From Deltaproteobacteria bacterium (GTDB taxonomy: Bacteria; Myxococcota_C; UBA6777), in NCBI GenBank assembly GCA_002731275.1, contig PCBK01000070.1:1-64000 (forward strand): a stretch of 64,000 nt of DNA, read 5' to 3'. The position numbers were made by a program, and so were the translations under genes. Shown one piece after another: positions 44,229 to 52,032 of the stretch; within the stretch, counting starts at the first letter, position 1, and the number at the start of each line of letters is the position of its first letter. The notes below the pieces were generated by a model that saw only the letters and a list, made by a program, of their open reading frames with translations, had not been told where the DNA came from and searched no databases.

Positions 44229-44672
44229 CTTTTTCCTCATCTCTTCTATTTTGTGGCGGGGCTGTTGCCTTTTGTTAGCAACGCACATGCCAGAATGCGC
44301 TGAGGGGGCGTGGTAGCTGAGCAGCATAGGCCTCTTCGTCCGGTATATATAGGTTGTAAGTGATTAGAGTGGCGAATCTGGATGACAGAGAAGTAGAGGA
44401 TGTCGGCCCATGTCTTGTAGCAAATTCGTCACAAGGTGGATAGTTCTTTATCCTCTCGTGTTGCGGTGTCGATGTCTTTGAGAGAGAGGCGGTCATGTGG
44501 TCTTTTGCAGTCCCTTGATTTGGTGCTTCTTTTGTGTATGATGAAGACAAACCGATTCTGTATGAGTTACATATAGATGATGTCTGAGAAGTCAAAGCCC
44601 ATAGAGAAGGGGGTTGACTTTCTGCTGAGGGTGGGCCTCACACCGAAAAATCCAGATAAGCAGGAGCTTTTG
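44229..44672. other. 444-bp divergent intergenic region
   Basis: Spacer between two lipoprotein genes. It carries the plus-strand promoter at 44515-44542. The in-frame extension of the downstream gene to 44577 has no ribosome binding site. Nothing else clear. Confidence 0.5.
44515..44542 (+). promoter_or_regulatory. Candidate promoter for the MopE/NHL lipoprotein
   Basis: TTGATT (44515-44520), a 16-bp spacer and TATGAT (44537-44542). With the start at 44673 the leader would be about 125 nt. Confidence 0.5.
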
Positions 44673-47474
44673 ATGCGTCGTAGTATGCGAAACGTGTTGT
44701 TTGTGTTGTGTTCCTTTTTGTGCGTGATGGTCTTGGGGCCGAGTGCGTGTTCTCCACCACAAATATGCGCGGAAGGCGAAGATCTTCCGGCAAACCCGAC
44801 CTCTTTGAATGCAGGTGGGAGTCCATGTAAGTCCGATTGTGAATGTAGTAACCAAGTCTTCGAAGGGTATTGCAAAAAAGAGACACCTGACGCCGAAGAG
44901 GGGATCTGTGTCGTCATCCAACGTGAGACTTGTAATGGTGTAGGACGCATCGCGACCTGTATTCCGCAACTGCCTCCACTGCCTGCCGATGCAGCCTGCC
45001 GTACTGGGTATCGGATCTGCAAACCTGATTATCTTGAGACTTCGATGTGGGGGAACTGTGAACCTCTTGAAGCGTTTCGTAAACGCAACAACATCACCGC
45101 GACAGAGTCCGATGAGAAGACCTGTGGAGACGGCGTCGATAACGATTGTAACGGGAAGACCGATAAGTCAGATCCCGCTTGCAAAGACTTCTGCGATCCA
45201 GGGCAACGTCGGGTTTGTTTTACGGACAAAGATAACAAGATCGTAGATGGTCGCTTTGGTGACGCGCAACAACAAGCGGCAGCTGCTAACACGGGGAGCT
45301 GCTCGACAGGTTTTCAGTTTTGCAAAGATGGCAAGTGGGATGAGGAGTGTGTTGGGGAGAAGAAGCCTGCTGCTGAGGTCTGTGACGGTGTTGATAACGA
45401 CTGCGACGGGAAAATCGACAATGGTGTAGATGACTGTAAATGTACGCCTGGTACAAAAGAACCCTGTTATGATGGACCTTCAGGGACACAAAACGTTGGT
45501 CCCTGTAAAAATGGCATTAGGACGTGTGGCGGAGATGGCCTTTGGGGAGCATGTGAGGGCGCGGTCTATCCTACGACACAAGCGTGTAAAGGGGTTGACG
45601 ATGACTGTGATGGTTTGGTCGATGAAGGGTGTCCATGCTTGGGAGAAGCGCCTCGGGATTGTGGATCAAGCCTCGGAAGCTGTCAGGCTGGGAAACAGCG
45701 CTGTGAAAGTAATATTTGGTCCTCCCTCTGTTATGCGTATCGTGGACCCACGCCAGAGGTCTGTGACAACGATGATAATGACTGTGACGGTCAAGTTGAC
45801 GAAGGACTACGTCGCTCATGTTCATACGGTTGCAAAACGGACGATGGCAAAGCGATTGTCGGTGTTGAGCGTTGCGAAGGGGGAAGCTGGACGGGATGTA
45901 GTGCCCCCAAGCCACCCCAAGAAGAGTGCAACGGGAAAGATGATGATTGTGACGGAACTATCGACAATATGACACCTAAGGCCTGCAAACATCCGACTTG
46001 CGGCGATGGATTGCAATTCTGTGCCAAGGGAGTGTGGAGTTCTTGTTTTGTCCCCCCTTCGGGCAAAGAGGTGTGTAACAACAAAGACGATAACTGCGAT
46101 GGCAACATCGATGAAGGACTGGTCCGGACGTGCAAAAACAGTTGCAATGTTGAAGGGGCTGAATTTTGCTTGGGAGGTCAGTGGGTTGGGTGTACCGCGC
46201 CGACACCCCTCCCGTTCGAATACTGTGACGGTAAGGATAACGATTGTAACGGCCAAATCGATGATAACGTGACGGATATTGGACGTTCATGTGCGATTCC
46301 GCAAGGCAAAGGTGTTTGTGGAACCGGAACGATCACCGCTTGTAATGGAGGCAAGCCACTTTGTACTGCCAACACCGCGACGGCTGAATCGTGTAATGGG
46401 TTGGACGACGACTGTGATGGTCAGGTGGATGAGGGGACGTCGAGCTGTGTCTCTGTCTTCGCTGGTAAGTGTGGTGTGGAAGGATACAAAGACGGTACGC
46501 TCGATGTGGCGATGTTCTCGTCTCCTGCTGGTATGGCAGTGAACCCCTCAAATAGTAGCCTCTATTTGGCCGATCCCGGCAACAAACGCTATCGTTTGAT
46601 CACAAGAAGTGGGGTTGTCTCGACGATTGCGGGAGATGGGACGAGTGGTTACCTGGAAGGTCCCGCCTTAATGGCGAAGTTTATGTTTCCGATGACCATC
46701 CTCGCGCCGGATGAGTCGATGACCAAAATGTACTTGCTTGATACGAGCAATTCGATGATACGAGCGTACGTATTCAAAACATCGACAAAGGGAGCATACA
46801 TCGAGAGCATCGCAGGTACAGGAAAGACCGGCTCAGCAGATGGTCTTGTGGGTGGTGCGACCTTTACGTACCCTGGGGATATCACAAAGGGAAATATTTC
46901 GGGAGGGATTCTATATGTTGCGGATACCTCCAACAACAAAATCCGCACAGTTGTCGTTGGTTCCAATGTGACGACATTGGCAGGCCAGGCTGGTGGAGGA
47001 TTCCTTGATGGGACGCTCTCTACGGCGAGATTCAATATCCCAAGCGGTGTCTCGTTCGACTTCGCGACAGATACACTTTATGTTGCGGACACAGCGAATC
47101 ATCGCGTCCGGGCGATCGATATCAGCAAGAGTTTGGTCTCGACTTTGGCTGGGGATGGTAAGTGTGATCCTGCAACGGGTATGGACTGCTACAAGGATGG
47201 CTCGACTGCGATCGCGCAGTTTATCCGGCCACGTAAGGTGCTCGTGCATGGTAATGTTCTTTACGTGTTGGAGGAGCATCGCATCCGCGCGATCAATTTG
47301 ACGACAAAGATGGTGTCGACTATTGCGGGAGATGGCAAGAAGGGTTACAAAAATGGTCCTGCTTTACAAGCACAATTTGGAAGGCTCTCCCACATGGTGG
47401 TGGGTCAAAATGGAGATTTGATCGTCTCGGATGCCGGTAATCACTGCCTGCTACGAATCTCTTTGACACCATAA
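44673..47474 (+). CDS. Lipoprotein with eight MopE-type metal-binding repeats and NHL repeats
   Basis: 933 residues from ATG 44673 (GGAG 6 nt upstream), directly before a signal ending GPSAC (Cys26). Residues about 130-590 contain eight copies of the MopE motif, for example CDGVDNDCDGKIDNG, CKGVDDDCDGLVDEG and CNGLDDDCDGQVDEG, spaced by Cys-rich stretches. In the family these resemble EF-hand DxDxDG loops and bind metal (calcium or copper; which one cannot be told). Residues about 595-930 form NHL repeats (ADPGNKRYRLITRSGVVSTI, VADTANHRVRAID, SDAGNHCLLRI), probably a six-bladed propeller. It is a surface or periplasmic binding protein with no enzyme motif. The MFS gene follows after 36 bp. 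Confidence 0.88.
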   Translation: MRRSMRNVLFVLCSFLCVMVLGPSACSPPQICAEGEDLPANPTSLNAGGSPCKSDCECSNQVFEGYCKKETPDAEEGICVVIQRETCNGVGRIATCIPQLPPLPADAACRTGYRICKPDYLETSMWGNCEPLEAFRKRNNITATESDEKTCGDGVDNDCNGKTDKSDPACKDFCDPGQRRVCFTDKDNKIVDGRFGDAQQQAAAANTGSCSTGFQFCKDGKWDEECVGEKKPAAEVCDGVDNDCDGKIDNGVDDCKCTPGTKEPCYDGPSGTQNVGPCKNGIRTCGGDGLWGACEGAVYPTTQACKGVDDDCDGLVDEGCPCLGEAPRDCGSSLGSCQAGKQRCESNIWSSLCYAYRGPTPEVCDNDDNDCDGQVDEGLRRSCSYGCKTDDGKAIVGVERCEGGSWTGCSAPKPPQEECNGKDDDCDGTIDNMTPKACKHPTCGDGLQFCAKGVWSSCFVPPSGKEVCNNKDDNCDGNIDEGLVRTCKNSCNVEGAEFCLGGQWVGCTAPTPLPFEYCDGKDNDCNGQIDDNVTDIGRSCAIPQGKGVCGTGTITACNGGKPLCTANTATAESCNGLDDDCDGQVDEGTSSCVSVFAGKCGVEGYKDGTLDVAMFSSPAGMAVNPSNSSLYLADPGNKRYRLITRSGVVSTIAGDGTSGYLEGPALMAKFMFPMTILAPDESMTKMYLLDTSNSMIRAYVFKTSTKGAYIESIAGTGKTGSADGLVGGATFTYPGDITKGNISGGILYVADTSNNKIRTVVVGSNVTTLAGQAGGGFLDGTLSTARFNIPSGVSFDFATDTLYVADTANHRVRAIDISKSLVSTLAGDGKCDPATGMDCYKDGSTAIAQFIRPRKVLVHGNVLYVLEEHRIRAINLTTKMVSTIAGDGKKGYKNGPALQAQFGRLSHMVVGQNGDLIVSDAGNHCLLRISLTP

Positions 47475-47510: not shown

Positions 47511-48812
47511 ATGAGCCGGATGTCACAGTTTCTTTTTGGTGCAGGTGGTTTTGCCATGCACGCGAGCAATTTTTTGATCGTTACGTGGCTGACAAAGTTC
47601 TATACCCCTGGAAATGGAAAGGATCTTGTGGATCCGTGGTTGTTTGGATTGATCTTCTTGTTCGGTCGTATCATCGACGCGGTCGCCGATCCCGTTGTGG
47701 GGTATTGGTCGGACCACCACGAGGGAAAATTGGGGCGTCGTATTCCCTTCATCCGTTGGGGGGCGCCCTTCTTGGCGCTGTTCCTGTTTTTGTCCTTTAC
47801 ACCCATCACCAAGACGGCATCATTGGCTAACGGCATCTACCTTGCGGTCATTATGGCTGGGTTTTTCTTCTTCTATACCGTCGTCATTACACCTTACCTG
47901 GCTTTGATCCCAGAGATCACAAACGATCCCAAAGAGCGTGTCAATCTCACGACCATCCAAGCGGTCTTCATCTTGATCGCGACAGTGTACGTCGCTGCGC
48001 TCTCAGGGCCGTTGATTCAGGCGTTGGGGTATGTGTACTTTATGCTCCTCTCCAGTCTGCTCGTCTTGGCTGCCTCTCTCGCGCCTCTCTGGGCGGCCAA
48101 ACCGCAACCCTATACTCGACCCAAAGGGAAAGAGGAAGCGACTATCGGCCAGATCGTCAAGTGGACGCTCTCAACTTGGAACAACCGACCTTTTCGTCAT
48201 GTCCTGTTGTCCACATCGTTTTTTTGGTTTGGTTTGAACCTCTTGATGGCTGCGATTGCGTTGTGGGTGACCAACGTGCTTGGCGGAAAAGAGGCGGATG
48301 TTGCGTTGGTTATGGGGCCGTTGATCGTGTCCAACCTGCTCGGTTTTTGGTTGTTCAACATCCTCGCACGTCGAAGAGGCAAGTACTTTGCGTTTATTTT
48401 GATGTTCATCGGGATGATCCTCGTGACACCTTCATGGTTTTTTGTGCAGAGACTTACTGGAGATATGCCCTACCTTCACGCGATGATCATGTCTTTTTGT
48501 TTGGGGTTCCCGCTCGCAGGGTTCCAGTCTTTGCCATACGCTGTGTTGGCAGATGTGATCGACCACGACGAAGAGCTCTCTGGAGAACGTCGCGAGGCGA
48601 TCTTCTTTGGAATGCAAGCGATCTTTCAGAAATCGATGATCGGCTTGTCGATGGTCGTGTTGCAGCTGATGAGGAGCAGCTTTGGCGAGGTGATGGGGCT
48701 TCGTCTTCTCGGGCCTGTTGCGGCGATCTCTTGTCTGATTGGTTTGATCTCTTTCCTTGGTTATTCACTGCGAGAGCTGCCCGAAAATCCCTCTACTACC
48801 GAAGCCTCCTGA
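47511..48812 (+). CDS. GPH/MelB-family MFS transporter
   Basis: 433 residues with GGAGG 6 nt before the ATG. Twelve membrane helices are apparent. The signature DAVADPVVGYWSDHHEGKLG (about 61-80) then RRIPFIRWGAP is characteristic of the glycoside-pentoside-hexuronide group of the major facilitator superfamily. Bacterial members import sugars with cations; eukaryotic members include the lysolipid and sphingosine-phosphate carriers MFSD2A/B. The substrate cannot be read from the sequence. The gene directly downstream (173 bp) is the sphingolipid-type fusion enzyme, so a lipid substrate is possible. It lies 36 bp after the MopE/NHL gene and may be cotranscribed with it. Confidence 0.88.
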   Translation: MSRMSQFLFGAGGFAMHASNFLIVTWLTKFYTPGNGKDLVDPWLFGLIFLFGRIIDAVADPVVGYWSDHHEGKLGRRIPFIRWGAPFLALFLFLSFTPITKTASLANGIYLAVIMAGFFFFYTVVITPYLALIPEITNDPKERVNLTTIQAVFILIATVYVAALSGPLIQALGYVYFMLLSSLLVLAASLAPLWAAKPQPYTRPKGKEEATIGQIVKWTLSTWNNRPFRHVLLSTSFFWFGLNLLMAAIALWVTNVLGGKEADVALVMGPLIVSNLLGFWLFNILARRRGKYFAFILMFIGMILVTPSWFFVQRLTGDMPYLHAMIMSFCLGFPLAGFQSLPYAVLADVIDHDEELSGERREAIFFGMQAIFQKSMIGLSMVVLQLMRSSFGEVMGLRLLGPVAAISCLIGLISFLGYSLRELPENPSTTEAS

Positions 48813-48985
48813 ACGTCTCACGCCTCTTTTGACCTTTTTCGTGCTCGCTCCTTGCGTGCTTTCATGGGCCGTACTCTTGCACTTGTGCGCGTTCTGCTCT
48901 ATACAGGACGCGCAACAACATTTGATTGTATCCATCAAAGAAAAGGCCCGCATGGTTTTGTGTCTTCATCGTTTTAGGGAAAAGA

Positions 48986-51211
48986 ATGTCCTGGTTACAT
49001 GAACAAACAACAGAATTTTTGACGCGTATTCGAGAGGCCAAGTCTCTCGATGTCTATCCATACTTTCGACAATTTCAGGATGTTGGCCCTCGGGTCACGA
49101 TCGATGGACGGCAATATATCAACTTCACGTCCAACGATTATCTCGGATTGTCACAAGATCCACGCCTGATTCGCGCAGCGAAAAGAGGCGCCTCGGAGTA
49201 CGGTACTGGACTTGGTTCCTCCCGTGTACAGGCTACAACGGATCGCCATGTCCTGCTTGAGAAGAAGCTCGCGGAGTGGTTTGGATATCCTGCGTGTGCG
49301 GTCTTTACGACAGGGTATCAGTCTTTGGTGGGGTTGATCTCGACATTCGCTGAGGCGGAGTCGACGATGATCCTGGATCAGCTCAGCCATGCGTCCATTC
49401 TCGATGGAACATTTATGGCGAAGGGGCGGTATGGACAGAAGCTTGAGACCCGCTTTTTCAAGCACAACAGCGTGCGAGGGGTCAAACGTATCCTGAAAAA
49501 CTCGACGTACGACAAGCGATTGTTGATGATCGAGGGGGTGTACAGTCTCGATGGTGACATCGCGCCACTCGATGAGTTCGTCAAACTCGCCAAAGAGCAC
49601 AACACACCTGTCATGGTGGACGATGCGCACGGGATGGGGACACTTGGTGCGACGGGGCGCGGTATTCTCGAACACTTCAACCTTCAACCGAGCGATGTTG
49701 ATTTTCTGGTCGGTACATTTAGTAAGTCCTTCGGTGGTGTCGGTGGTTTTGTCCTCGGAAACGAAGAGCTCATCGAGTACATGAAGAACTCCGCGCGTTC
49801 CTTTGTCTTCTCTGCGTCGTTGCCGGTCCCGATTGTCGAGGCGATGATCACGTCGCTTGATATTATGGCCAACGATCTTTCTTATCTGCGTCGGCTCAAA
49901 GAGAACGAGCAGATGATGCGTGATGGCCTGCGCACACTTGGTTTTGATCTCGGTACAAGCAACACCCACATCATGCCGTTGGTGTTGCGAGACGAGTCCA
50001 AAACGGTTGAGTTTGGTGCGTGGTTGAGGGCGCTTGGTGTGATCATGATCCCCATCTTGTACCCCGCAGTTGGGCGCGGTGAAGAGCGATTGCGATGCAA
50101 CATCACCGCCGCACATACCAAGCAAGATATTGGTGTGACCCTTGAAATTGTCGAATATGTGGGCAAAAAACTCGGCTTCATTCCGCGAGCTGCCAAGAGC
50201 CCTCATTCGACGCGTGAGCGTGCGTTGTGGGCCGGGCGCGAGGTCGTCCGTCGGGCTGGTGAGCTACGACCAAGGCACCTTCAACAAGCGTCTCGCTTTG
50301 TCACGCAAAAAGCCGAACGCCTCGTCAAGCAAGTCGTCGAGGGCGAGCAACCAGAGTGGACTCCGGAGGAAGAAATGAACGTGCGTCGTCATTTTCATCG
50401 AAAAAATGTCATCATCACAGGTGGTTCGAGCGGGATCGGTCGTGCTCTTGCGCTCCAACTCGCAGAGCTAGGGGCCAACTTGTTTTTGATCGCTCGCCGA
50501 CAAGAACCCCTCGAAGAAGTACGCAAGGAGCTCGACATCGTCCGCCAACACGAAGATCAGGTGTGCGAGGTGTTTAGCGCTGATATCTCCGATCGAGAAG
50601 CGATTGAGACGACCATCAACGAGATCTGTGAACGTCACCACCCTGATTTTCTGTTTAACAATGCGGGGATCGCCTACGCAAACTATCTCGATGAGACCAA
50701 GCCTGAAGTCTTCGAAGATATGATGCGGGTGAACTATCTCGGTACTGTGTGGGCGACGAGAGCGACCTTACCCTTCTTTAAGAAGCGACAACGAGGACAC
50801 GTCGTCAATGTCTCCTCTATTGCTGGCTTGATTGGGATCTTTGGATATGCAGCGTATGCACCAAGTAAATTCGCTGTGATGGGATTCTCTGATGTCCTGC
50901 GTAACGAGGTGACTGCACAAAACATTCGTGTCTCTGTGGTCCTTCCACCGGACACTGACACTCCACAGTTGGCCGCAGAAAATCGTCTGAAGCCACCCGA
51001 GACCAAGGCGCTCGCCGGGACATCTGGCTTACTCGATCCGAAAGATGTCGCACGCTCCATTCTCAACGGTGTCGCTGCTGAACGTTACCACATCGTCCCT
51101 GGCCTCAATAACAAATTCCCATACTGGGCGGCACATTGGGTTCCTGGCTTGATGAGATGGTTTCTCGACAAAGAGATCGTGTCGTTTCAGCGCAAAAAAG
51201 ACAACCCCTGA
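48986..51211 (+). CDS. Fusion of serine palmitoyltransferase-type enzyme and 3-ketosphinganine reductase-like SDR
   Basis: 741 residues from ATG 48986 (AGGG 6 nt upstream). Residues 1-400 are a PLP alpha-oxoamine synthase: NDYLGLSQDP, LDQLSHASILDG (His135), VDDAHGMGTLG (Asp212, His215) and TFSKSFGG with the PLP Lys247. A helical basic linker (about 400-470) follows. Residues 472-741 are a short-chain dehydrogenase: TGGSSGIG (478-485), NNAG (558-561), Ser610/611 and YAPSK with Tyr624 and Lys628. Its LPPDTDTP (653-660) and NRLKPPETKAL match what I know of eukaryotic 3-ketodihydrosphingosine reductase (KDSR/Tsc10). The first domain could make 3-ketosphinganine from serine and an acyl thioester, and the second reduce it to sphinganine. 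The alternative of a biotin or threonine-type oxoamine synthase is less consistent with the reductase. No acyl carrier protein or ceramide synthase is nearby. Confidence 0.85.
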   Translation: MSWLHEQTTEFLTRIREAKSLDVYPYFRQFQDVGPRVTIDGRQYINFTSNDYLGLSQDPRLIRAAKRGASEYGTGLGSSRVQATTDRHVLLEKKLAEWFGYPACAVFTTGYQSLVGLISTFAEAESTMILDQLSHASILDGTFMAKGRYGQKLETRFFKHNSVRGVKRILKNSTYDKRLLMIEGVYSLDGDIAPLDEFVKLAKEHNTPVMVDDAHGMGTLGATGRGILEHFNLQPSDVDFLVGTFSKSFGGVGGFVLGNEELIEYMKNSARSFVFSASLPVPIVEAMITSLDIMANDLSYLRRLKENEQMMRDGLRTLGFDLGTSNTHIMPLVLRDESKTVEFGAWLRALGVIMIPILYPAVGRGEERLRCNITAAHTKQDIGVTLEIVEYVGKKLGFIPRAAKSPHSTRERALWAGREVVRRAGELRPRHLQQASRFVTQKAERLVKQVVEGEQPEWTPEEEMNVRRHFHRKNVIITGGSSGIGRALALQLAELGANLFLIARRQEPLEEVRKELDIVRQHEDQVCEVFSADISDREAIETTINEICERHHPDFLFNNAGIAYANYLDETKPEVFEDMMRVNYLGTVWATRATLPFFKKRQRGHVVNVSSIAGLIGIFGYAAYAPSKFAVMGFSDVLRNEVTAQNIRVSVVLPPDTDTPQLAAENRLKPPETKALAGTSGLLDPKDVARSILNGVAAERYHIVPGLNNKFPYWAAHWVPGLMRWFLDKEIVSFQRKKDNP

Positions 51212-51453: not shown

Positions 51454-52032
51454 GTGGAAGAATTTGATAGAGAAGATCTTTTAGAAATTGTGCGCCTTGG
51501 ACACCCTAGCCTTCGTACGATCGCTGACCCTGTCCCTACAGCTGTTCTTGGGACGCCTGAGTTTCGACGCTTTGCTGACCAGTTGATTTATACAATGATA
51601 CACGCAGAGGGGGTTGGACTCGCCAGCCCACAGGTCGCCGAACCTCTTCGATGTTTTGCGTACTTTGTGCCCGGAGATGGCGAGGATAATGAGGTTCAGC
51701 CTTGTGTGATCGTCAATCCTGAGATTCGCTCCATTGGCTCGGAGGGCGAGTTTGGTTGGGAGGGCTGTCTCTCCATTCCCGAGCTTCGTGGGATCGTGCC
51801 TCGCTTTGGGAAGATTGAAGTCGAAGGGCTCGACATCGAGGGCAATCCGCTGTCTTTTATCGCTGAAGGTTTCCATGCGCGCGTGATTCAACACGAATTT
51901 GATCACCTCGATGGGGTGATTTTTCTCGATAGAATGGAAGATATGAGTTCACTGGCTTACGAAGAGGAGTGGCTCGACTACGTCATCGCTCCAGAAGGCG
52001 AAGATGACGATGAGTGGGAAGAGGACGAGTAG
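51454..52032 (+). CDS. def: Peptide deformylase
   Basis: 192 residues from GTG 51454 with AAGGA 7 nt upstream. It removes the N-formyl group from new proteins. Motif 1 is GVGLASPQ (53-60; family usually GVGLAAPQ), motif 2 EGCLSIPE with metal ligand Cys105, and motif 3 QHEFDHLDG with His147, Glu148 and His151. All catalytic residues are present. The C-terminus ends in an acidic tail (GEDDDEWEEDE), which is unusual. It is alone: the next gene is on the other strand, 30 bp beyond the stop, with a possible GACGCT/AGCGTC hairpin between. Confidence 0.95.
   Translation: MEEFDREDLLEIVRLGHPSLRTIADPVPTAVLGTPEFRRFADQLIYTMIHAEGVGLASPQVAEPLRCFAYFVPGDGEDNEVQPCVIVNPEIRSIGSEGEFGWEGCLSIPELRGIVPRFGKIEVEGLDIEGNPLSFIAEGFHARVIQHEFDHLDGVIFLDRMEDMSSLAYEEEWLDYVIAPEGEDDDEWEEDE

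Follow-up and report, generated by a model that had tools for sequence, protein, structure and literature searches.

Known routes to long-chain bases

In eukaryotes, serine palmitoyltransferase (SPT; LCB1/LCB2) and 3-ketodihydrosphingosine reductase (KDSR, or TSC10) are separate proteins, of which KDSR is membrane-bound. Bacteroides uses the SPT BT_0870 together with BT_0972, for which KDSR activity was shown; the two genes are unlinked, and 3-ketosphinganine is proposed to be reduced before N-acylation (PMC9278070). In P. fluorescens MYb115, SgaB, an experimentally tested alpha-oxoamine synthase (AOS) with SPT activity, and the KDSR homologue SgaC are encoded by separate genes of one cluster that includes an iterative polyketide synthase (PKS); in the same study the KDSR step was called unusual in bacteria outside Bacteroides and Prevotella (PMC12134224). 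Separate bacterial KDSRs have therefore already been described (PMC9278070, PMC12134224). A different solution is CerR of Caulobacter and E. coli BL21, an epimerase-type periplasmic protein proposed to act after N-acylation. This acylate-then-reduce order has been described, and the sequence of reduction and N-acylation in bacteria is disputed (PMC11087976).

Here we analyze a gene that joins an SPT-like AOS to a KDSR-type short-chain dehydrogenase/reductase (SDR) in one polypeptide. It lies within a stretch of 64,000 nucleotides of contig PCBK01000070.1, referred to as the window, from a deltaproteobacterial metagenome-assembled genome (G000, assembly GCA_002731275.1). The reactions proposed for it are those of the eukaryotic pair, and its reductase half belongs to the TSC10 clade; as in Bacteroides, reduction would precede N-acylation. 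Like SgaB and SgaC, it combines an SPT-type AOS and a KDSR-type SDR for one bacterial long-chain-base pathway, but as one protein and with no PKS beside it. CerR, too, is expected to reduce a sphingolipid intermediate at its 3-keto position, whereas the enzyme considered here is a classical SDR joined to an SPT-like partner. A row of PKS, AOS and SDR genes on Sinorhizobium pSymB, presumably RkpA-RkpG-RkpH, likewise brings AOS and SDR together, the SDR being of the same KDSR clade; its genes are unfused, however, with an AOS of another branch (about 35% identical) and capsule genes alongside. The same SDR clade is also paired with an SPT at loci L202, L204, L206, L209 and L212, but there the genes are separate and divergent and the AOS is of another family (SerpalmtaseCFB, 542-561 bits). 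No published description of an AOS-KDSR fusion was found in the open literature, subscription papers and preprints aside. The chemistry is known, but the domain architecture is new and, within the searches made, confined to one small phylum.

Architecture of the fusion gene

A preliminary description had placed an AOS, a basic linker and an SDR on a single polypeptide, with Lys247 as the PLP lysine and Tyr624 and Lys628 as the reductase pair. The 741-codon frame and its Pfam domains confirm this arrangement (Table 1), and the residues named are retained in a second fusion from a related genome (G001). Aminotran_1_2 was matched at residues 43-386 (E 1e-46) and adh_short at residues 473-664 (E 7e-49); homology to AOS proteins extends from residue 1 to about 400, beyond the Pfam bounds. 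An in-frame TTG is present upstream at 48,926, and homologues start at the same MSWLH as the frame from the ATG.

Table 1. Features of the fusion gene and its neighbours; positions refer to the window.
Feature	Position	Strand	Remarks
MFS_2 transporter, directly upstream, same strand, 174 bases apart	47511..48812	+	Pfam PF13347
Fusion gene, 741 residues, ATG start, TGA stop	48986..51211	+	single open frame
AOS domain, residues 43-386	49112..50143	+	Pfam PF00155; PDB matches to S. multivorum SPT
PLP lysine K247 in GTFSKSFGG	49724..49726	+	invariant in alignments
Linker, residues 397-466	50174..50383	+	two predicted helices; basic amphipathic stretch ~429-446
KDSR-type SDR domain, residues 473-741	50402..51208	+	Pfam PF00106; clade with TSC10, 100/99
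SDR catalytic Y624..K628 (YAPSK)	50855..50869	+	read from sequence; invariant with G001
KDSR-clade motif PPDTDTPQLAAENRLKPPETK, residues 654-674	50945..51007	+	one or both halves found only in the KDSR clade in the sample compared
Peptide deformylase, synteny marker common to G001, G002 and G004; outside the proposed function	51454..52032	+	

In the AOS half, H135, D212, H215, K247 and R370 all align with conserved AOS residues, so that the PLP lysine, the PLP-stacking histidine, the Asp/His pair and the carboxylate-binding arginine of the fold are present. The SDR domain opens with the cofactor motif TGGSSGIG and shows the TGxxxGxG and YxxxK motifs of a classical SDR; PPDTDTP and ENRLKPPETK both occur in it. 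An arginine after strand 2 is the usual mark of NADP(H) use in SDRs, and the one in LIARRQ suggests that this half probably prefers NADPH. AlphaFold2 modelled the AOS half with pLDDT values mostly over 90, whereas the SDR half was not well modelled. The linker between the domains spans about 70 residues; in comparisons with the tails of stand-alone AOS proteins, two of four tails scored above most shuffles, which is only suggestive of kinship.

An SPT-like synthase of its own clade

The AOS half missed the cut-off of every curated SPT profile (NF047600, 316 against 640 bits; NF047599, 296 against 500; NF047603, 247 against 670) and is therefore not filed in any described SPT family. It also stayed below the cut-offs for BioF (TIGR00858, 342 against 426 bits) and Kbl (TIGR01822, 256 against 493 bits). 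Both identities were rejected on these scores and on trees in which E. coli BioF and Kbl fall outside its group; the fusion genome carries a separate Kbl of 682 bits.

In the trees, the half joins stand-alone proteins of L104, L105, L116 and L117 (support 100/98); next to join them (100/99) is a clade in whose gene neighbourhoods two ketosynthase-type genes are found. Together they group with the SPTs of S. multivorum, S. wittichii and E. coli BL21 and with RkpG, apart from BioF and Kbl, with support of 93/88 in one tree and an SH-aLRT of 98 in another. Within this sample, which leaves eukaryotic SPT sequences outside, the fusion's half forms a sister branch to the characterised SPTs and does not fall inside their clade. 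SPTs are likewise its best PDB matches by sequence and those with the lowest rmsd, the modelled domain superposing on S. multivorum SPT with 1.4 A over 388-390 residues; the fold Z scores (52.6 for SPT, 52.9 for Kbl) do not separate the two. At the PLP lysine, GTFSKS is common to the three characterised SPTs aligned and absent from BioF, Kbl and the Thermus AOS. Clade-specific features are the loss of one residue after SR80 and an insertion in the region of residues 147-153. Taken from sequence and model, the AOS half probably works like an SPT, and the SPT-like clade that carries it is undescribed.

The distribution of this clade was surveyed in 377 genomes of the phylum that holds L021 (Polyangiaceae). 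As a query for the bacterial ceramide synthase bCerS we used E. coli yghO, which is listed as the N-acyltransferase gene of the bacterial sphingolipid pathway (PMC9386255). The AOS clade was found in 49 genomes, a CFB-type SPT in 92 and bCerS in 159. With shared ancestry ignored, the clade coincides with bCerS in 47 of its 49 genomes against 20.7 expected (p ~1e-17), and with a canonical SPT in none against 12 expected (p ~5e-7). A gene of the clade and a bCerS gene are divergent neighbours in G320. On the simplest reading, the clade would be the SPT of those 49 genomes, replacing the canonical enzyme. The earlier SPT-type call for the AOS half thus stands as a relationship, with the SPTs and outside BioF and Kbl, and by profile, but the half remains below all SPT cut-offs.

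Two further observations were made. Seventy of the 377 genomes carry bCerS but lack, at the thresholds used, both a CFB-type SPT and a member of the fusion's AOS clade; they may hold a further SPT type. At L188, L190, L192 and other loci, the gene of the sister AOS clade forms a conserved row with those for a FabF-like ketosynthase and for another, divergent ketosynthase-like protein, and these two are possibly a dedicated chain-making pair for an SPT-like enzyme.

The substrate of the synthase deserves separate consideration. The same two steps could be run with alanine, glycine or cysteate, yielding a 1-deoxysphinganine-, desoxymethyl- or capnine-type amino alcohol. AOS enzymes for these amino acids share the fold and catalytic residues of SPT, and the cysteate enzyme 7u7h is also among the PDB matches; moreover, SPT specificity is not transferable to a half that forms its own clade with its own deletion and insertion. 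The closest structural matches, the GTFSKS motif and the association of the clade with bCerS speak against another amino acid, which we consider unlikely, albeit the strongest competitor to serine.

A reductase of the KDSR line

The best single-domain PDB match of the SDR half is the 3-ketodihydrosphingosine reductase TSC10 of Cryptococcus with 107 bits; for comparison, the best PDB match of TSC10 besides itself reaches 51 bits. In a tree of 52 sequences, with retinol-type SDRs and BT_0972 outside the sample, the fusion SDRs, the stand-alone SDRs of the phylum, the SDRs found with the query, those of Sinorhizobium and Shinella, and TSC10 itself, on a long branch, form one clade (100/99). FabG and other SDRs fall outside it. 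Within the sample compared, the motifs P.DT.TP and EN..KP..T, or one of them, are found in this clade only. Clade support and clade-limited motifs together place the SDR half in the KDSR line, so the KDSR-like assignment is well supported and a FabG-like origin is not.

The preliminary description had further taken the two motifs as marks of eukaryotic KDSR. They are indeed confined to the TSC10 clade in our sample, but the wording was too narrow since the same clade is common in bacteria. For the same claim of kinship to the eukaryotic enzyme, the clade level holds, while a special closeness is unsupported. Across the 377 genomes, an SDR of the KDSR clade occurs in 45 and does not track SPT genes overall. 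It lies divergently beside a CFB-type SPT gene in G122, G132, G181, G394 and G414, which amounts to about two independent SDR-SPT loci because four of them are syntenic. Neither SPT type was found at the thresholds used in 36 of the 45 genomes; 23 of these 36 carry bCerS, and another SPT may be present there.

Genomic context and ceramide synthesis

The MFS_2 transporter upstream of the fusion is of a broad family to which the MFSD2 lipid transporters also belong. Further upstream, positions 44,577-47,474 encode a protein of 965 residues in which NHL repeats come after a large number of MopE-type metal-binding motifs.

The fusion genome is about 95% complete. A search for a ceramide synthase, suggested earlier as a check, was negative in it for both known kinds: no bCerS was detected with a query that works in G060, G293 and G397, and no TLC-type enzyme was found. 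With no CerR homologue at 1e-12 either, G000 shows neither component of the Caulobacter-type ceramide pathway (bCerS plus CerR). The absence of CerR agrees with a fused KDSR in its place, and the organism possibly contains free or otherwise modified long-chain bases.

An alternative is a more specialised lipid route: the AOS would draw its chain from a dedicated fatty-acid or polyketide synthase, and the reduced base would be used as an anchor or a secondary metabolite, in line with proposals for RkpA-G-H-type and Sga clusters, and not as a membrane sphingolipid backbone. Sinorhizobium and Shinella carry adjacent PKS, AOS and SDR genes with capsule genes next to them and an SDR of the KDSR clade, related stand-alone AOS genes adjoin ketosynthase, acyltransferase or dehydratase genes, and the lack of a recognised ceramide synthase in G000 would fit as well. 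Yet the window genes scanned around the fusion included no recognisable ketosynthase, acyltransferase or capsule gene, and the stand-alone AOS clade tracks ceramide synthase. We judge such a route improbable, slightly more so than the use of another amino acid.

Conservation of the fusion

The phylum of the window comprises only five genomes, all of one family. In G001 the fusion recurs with 63% identity over the two domains plus the linker, its copy being cut only by the contig start. Identity to the G000 protein is 72% in the AOS, 59% in the SDR and 32% in the linker, all catalytic residues are kept, and the two linkers align with a score of 118 against a maximum of 51 after shuffling. Differences concentrate at third codon positions in both domains. 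The second copy, the conserved linker and the third-position differences indicate that the fusion is real and under selection. That assembly or binning joined two genes in a genome with an estimated contamination of 5.5% can be set aside, because the fusion in G001 is independent, its linker is conserved and no stop interrupts it.

In G002 and G004 the SDR (50% identical) is unfused and occupies the same chromosomal place, flanked by the same deformylase, TPR and mannosyltransferase-like genes as the fusion. Elsewhere, both genomes encode a separate AOS of the SPT/RkpG group, which was not found in the two fusion genomes and which has acyltransferase, ketosynthase and SDR genes beside it. Hence, the two functions occur once fused and once separate within one family. 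G003, 86% complete, gave no match above threshold. As a separate observation, the SPT-group AOS of G002 (L291; contig C99, 11,000-23,000) adjoins acyltransferase, ketosynthase and SDR genes, possibly a dedicated fatty-acid cluster in a sister genus with an unfused KDSR-type SDR.

No other AOS-SDR fusion was found in 60 genomes, mostly of other phyla, in the 377 genomes surveyed above, or among the best 80 loci listed in a genome scan with two peptide patterns; two-part matches at L024 and L068 were rejected as separate frames. A second AOS fusion of a different kind exists in the same genome at L103 (contig C116, 1,393-3,966), where 858 residues combine an AOS with a GNAT domain (PF13480) at the C terminus. 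In G001 (C517, 941 codons) and G003 (C25, 903 codons), long frames found at AOS matches may be of this kind too.

Proposed function and implications

We favour, with a probability of roughly 60%, the reading that the fusion is a bifunctional long-chain-base synthase that makes a 3-keto base and reduces it at once. At the N-terminal PLP domain, a long acyl chain bound as a thioester to CoA or ACP would be condensed with an amino acid, in all likelihood L-serine, with release of CO2, to form a 3-keto long-chain base of the 3-ketosphinganine type. The C-terminal KDSR-type domain of the same polypeptide, probably with NADPH, would then reduce this product at its 3-keto group, yielding a sphinganine-type base; the fusion would raise the local concentration of reductase near the reactive amino ketone, and the direct passage of product between the domains proposed earlier may occur. 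Through its basic amphipathic stretch, the linker may keep the enzyme at the membrane, the destination of the product. Since known bacterial AOS enzymes are dimers, the protein would carry at least two of each site. Such a reduce-first order is that of eukaryotes and the one proposed for Bacteroides, not the acylate-then-reduce order proposed for Caulobacter.

A broader and more tentative scenario, which we would rather doubt than endorse, sees in the AOS clade an independent third bacterial SPT lineage that takes the place of the canonical SPT in many genomes. Its fusion to a KDSR in one small phylum would have created a reduce-first route in a single protein, one that does without bCerS and CerR and needs a not-yet-described N-acyltransferase; this bacterial SDR clade would also be the source of the eukaryotic KDSR.

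Because the SPT-like clade tracks ceramide synthase where canonical SPT is missing, the number of sphingolipid makers may be underestimated in surveys that rely on known SPT profiles. The wide bacterial distribution of the KDSR clade also bears on the origin of eukaryotic KDSR. As for the disputed order of steps, the natural joining of a KDSR to the pathway's first enzyme speaks for a reduce-first order in this lineage. Altogether, the genomic evidence suggests that a little-known lineage makes sphingolipid backbones with one two-headed enzyme.
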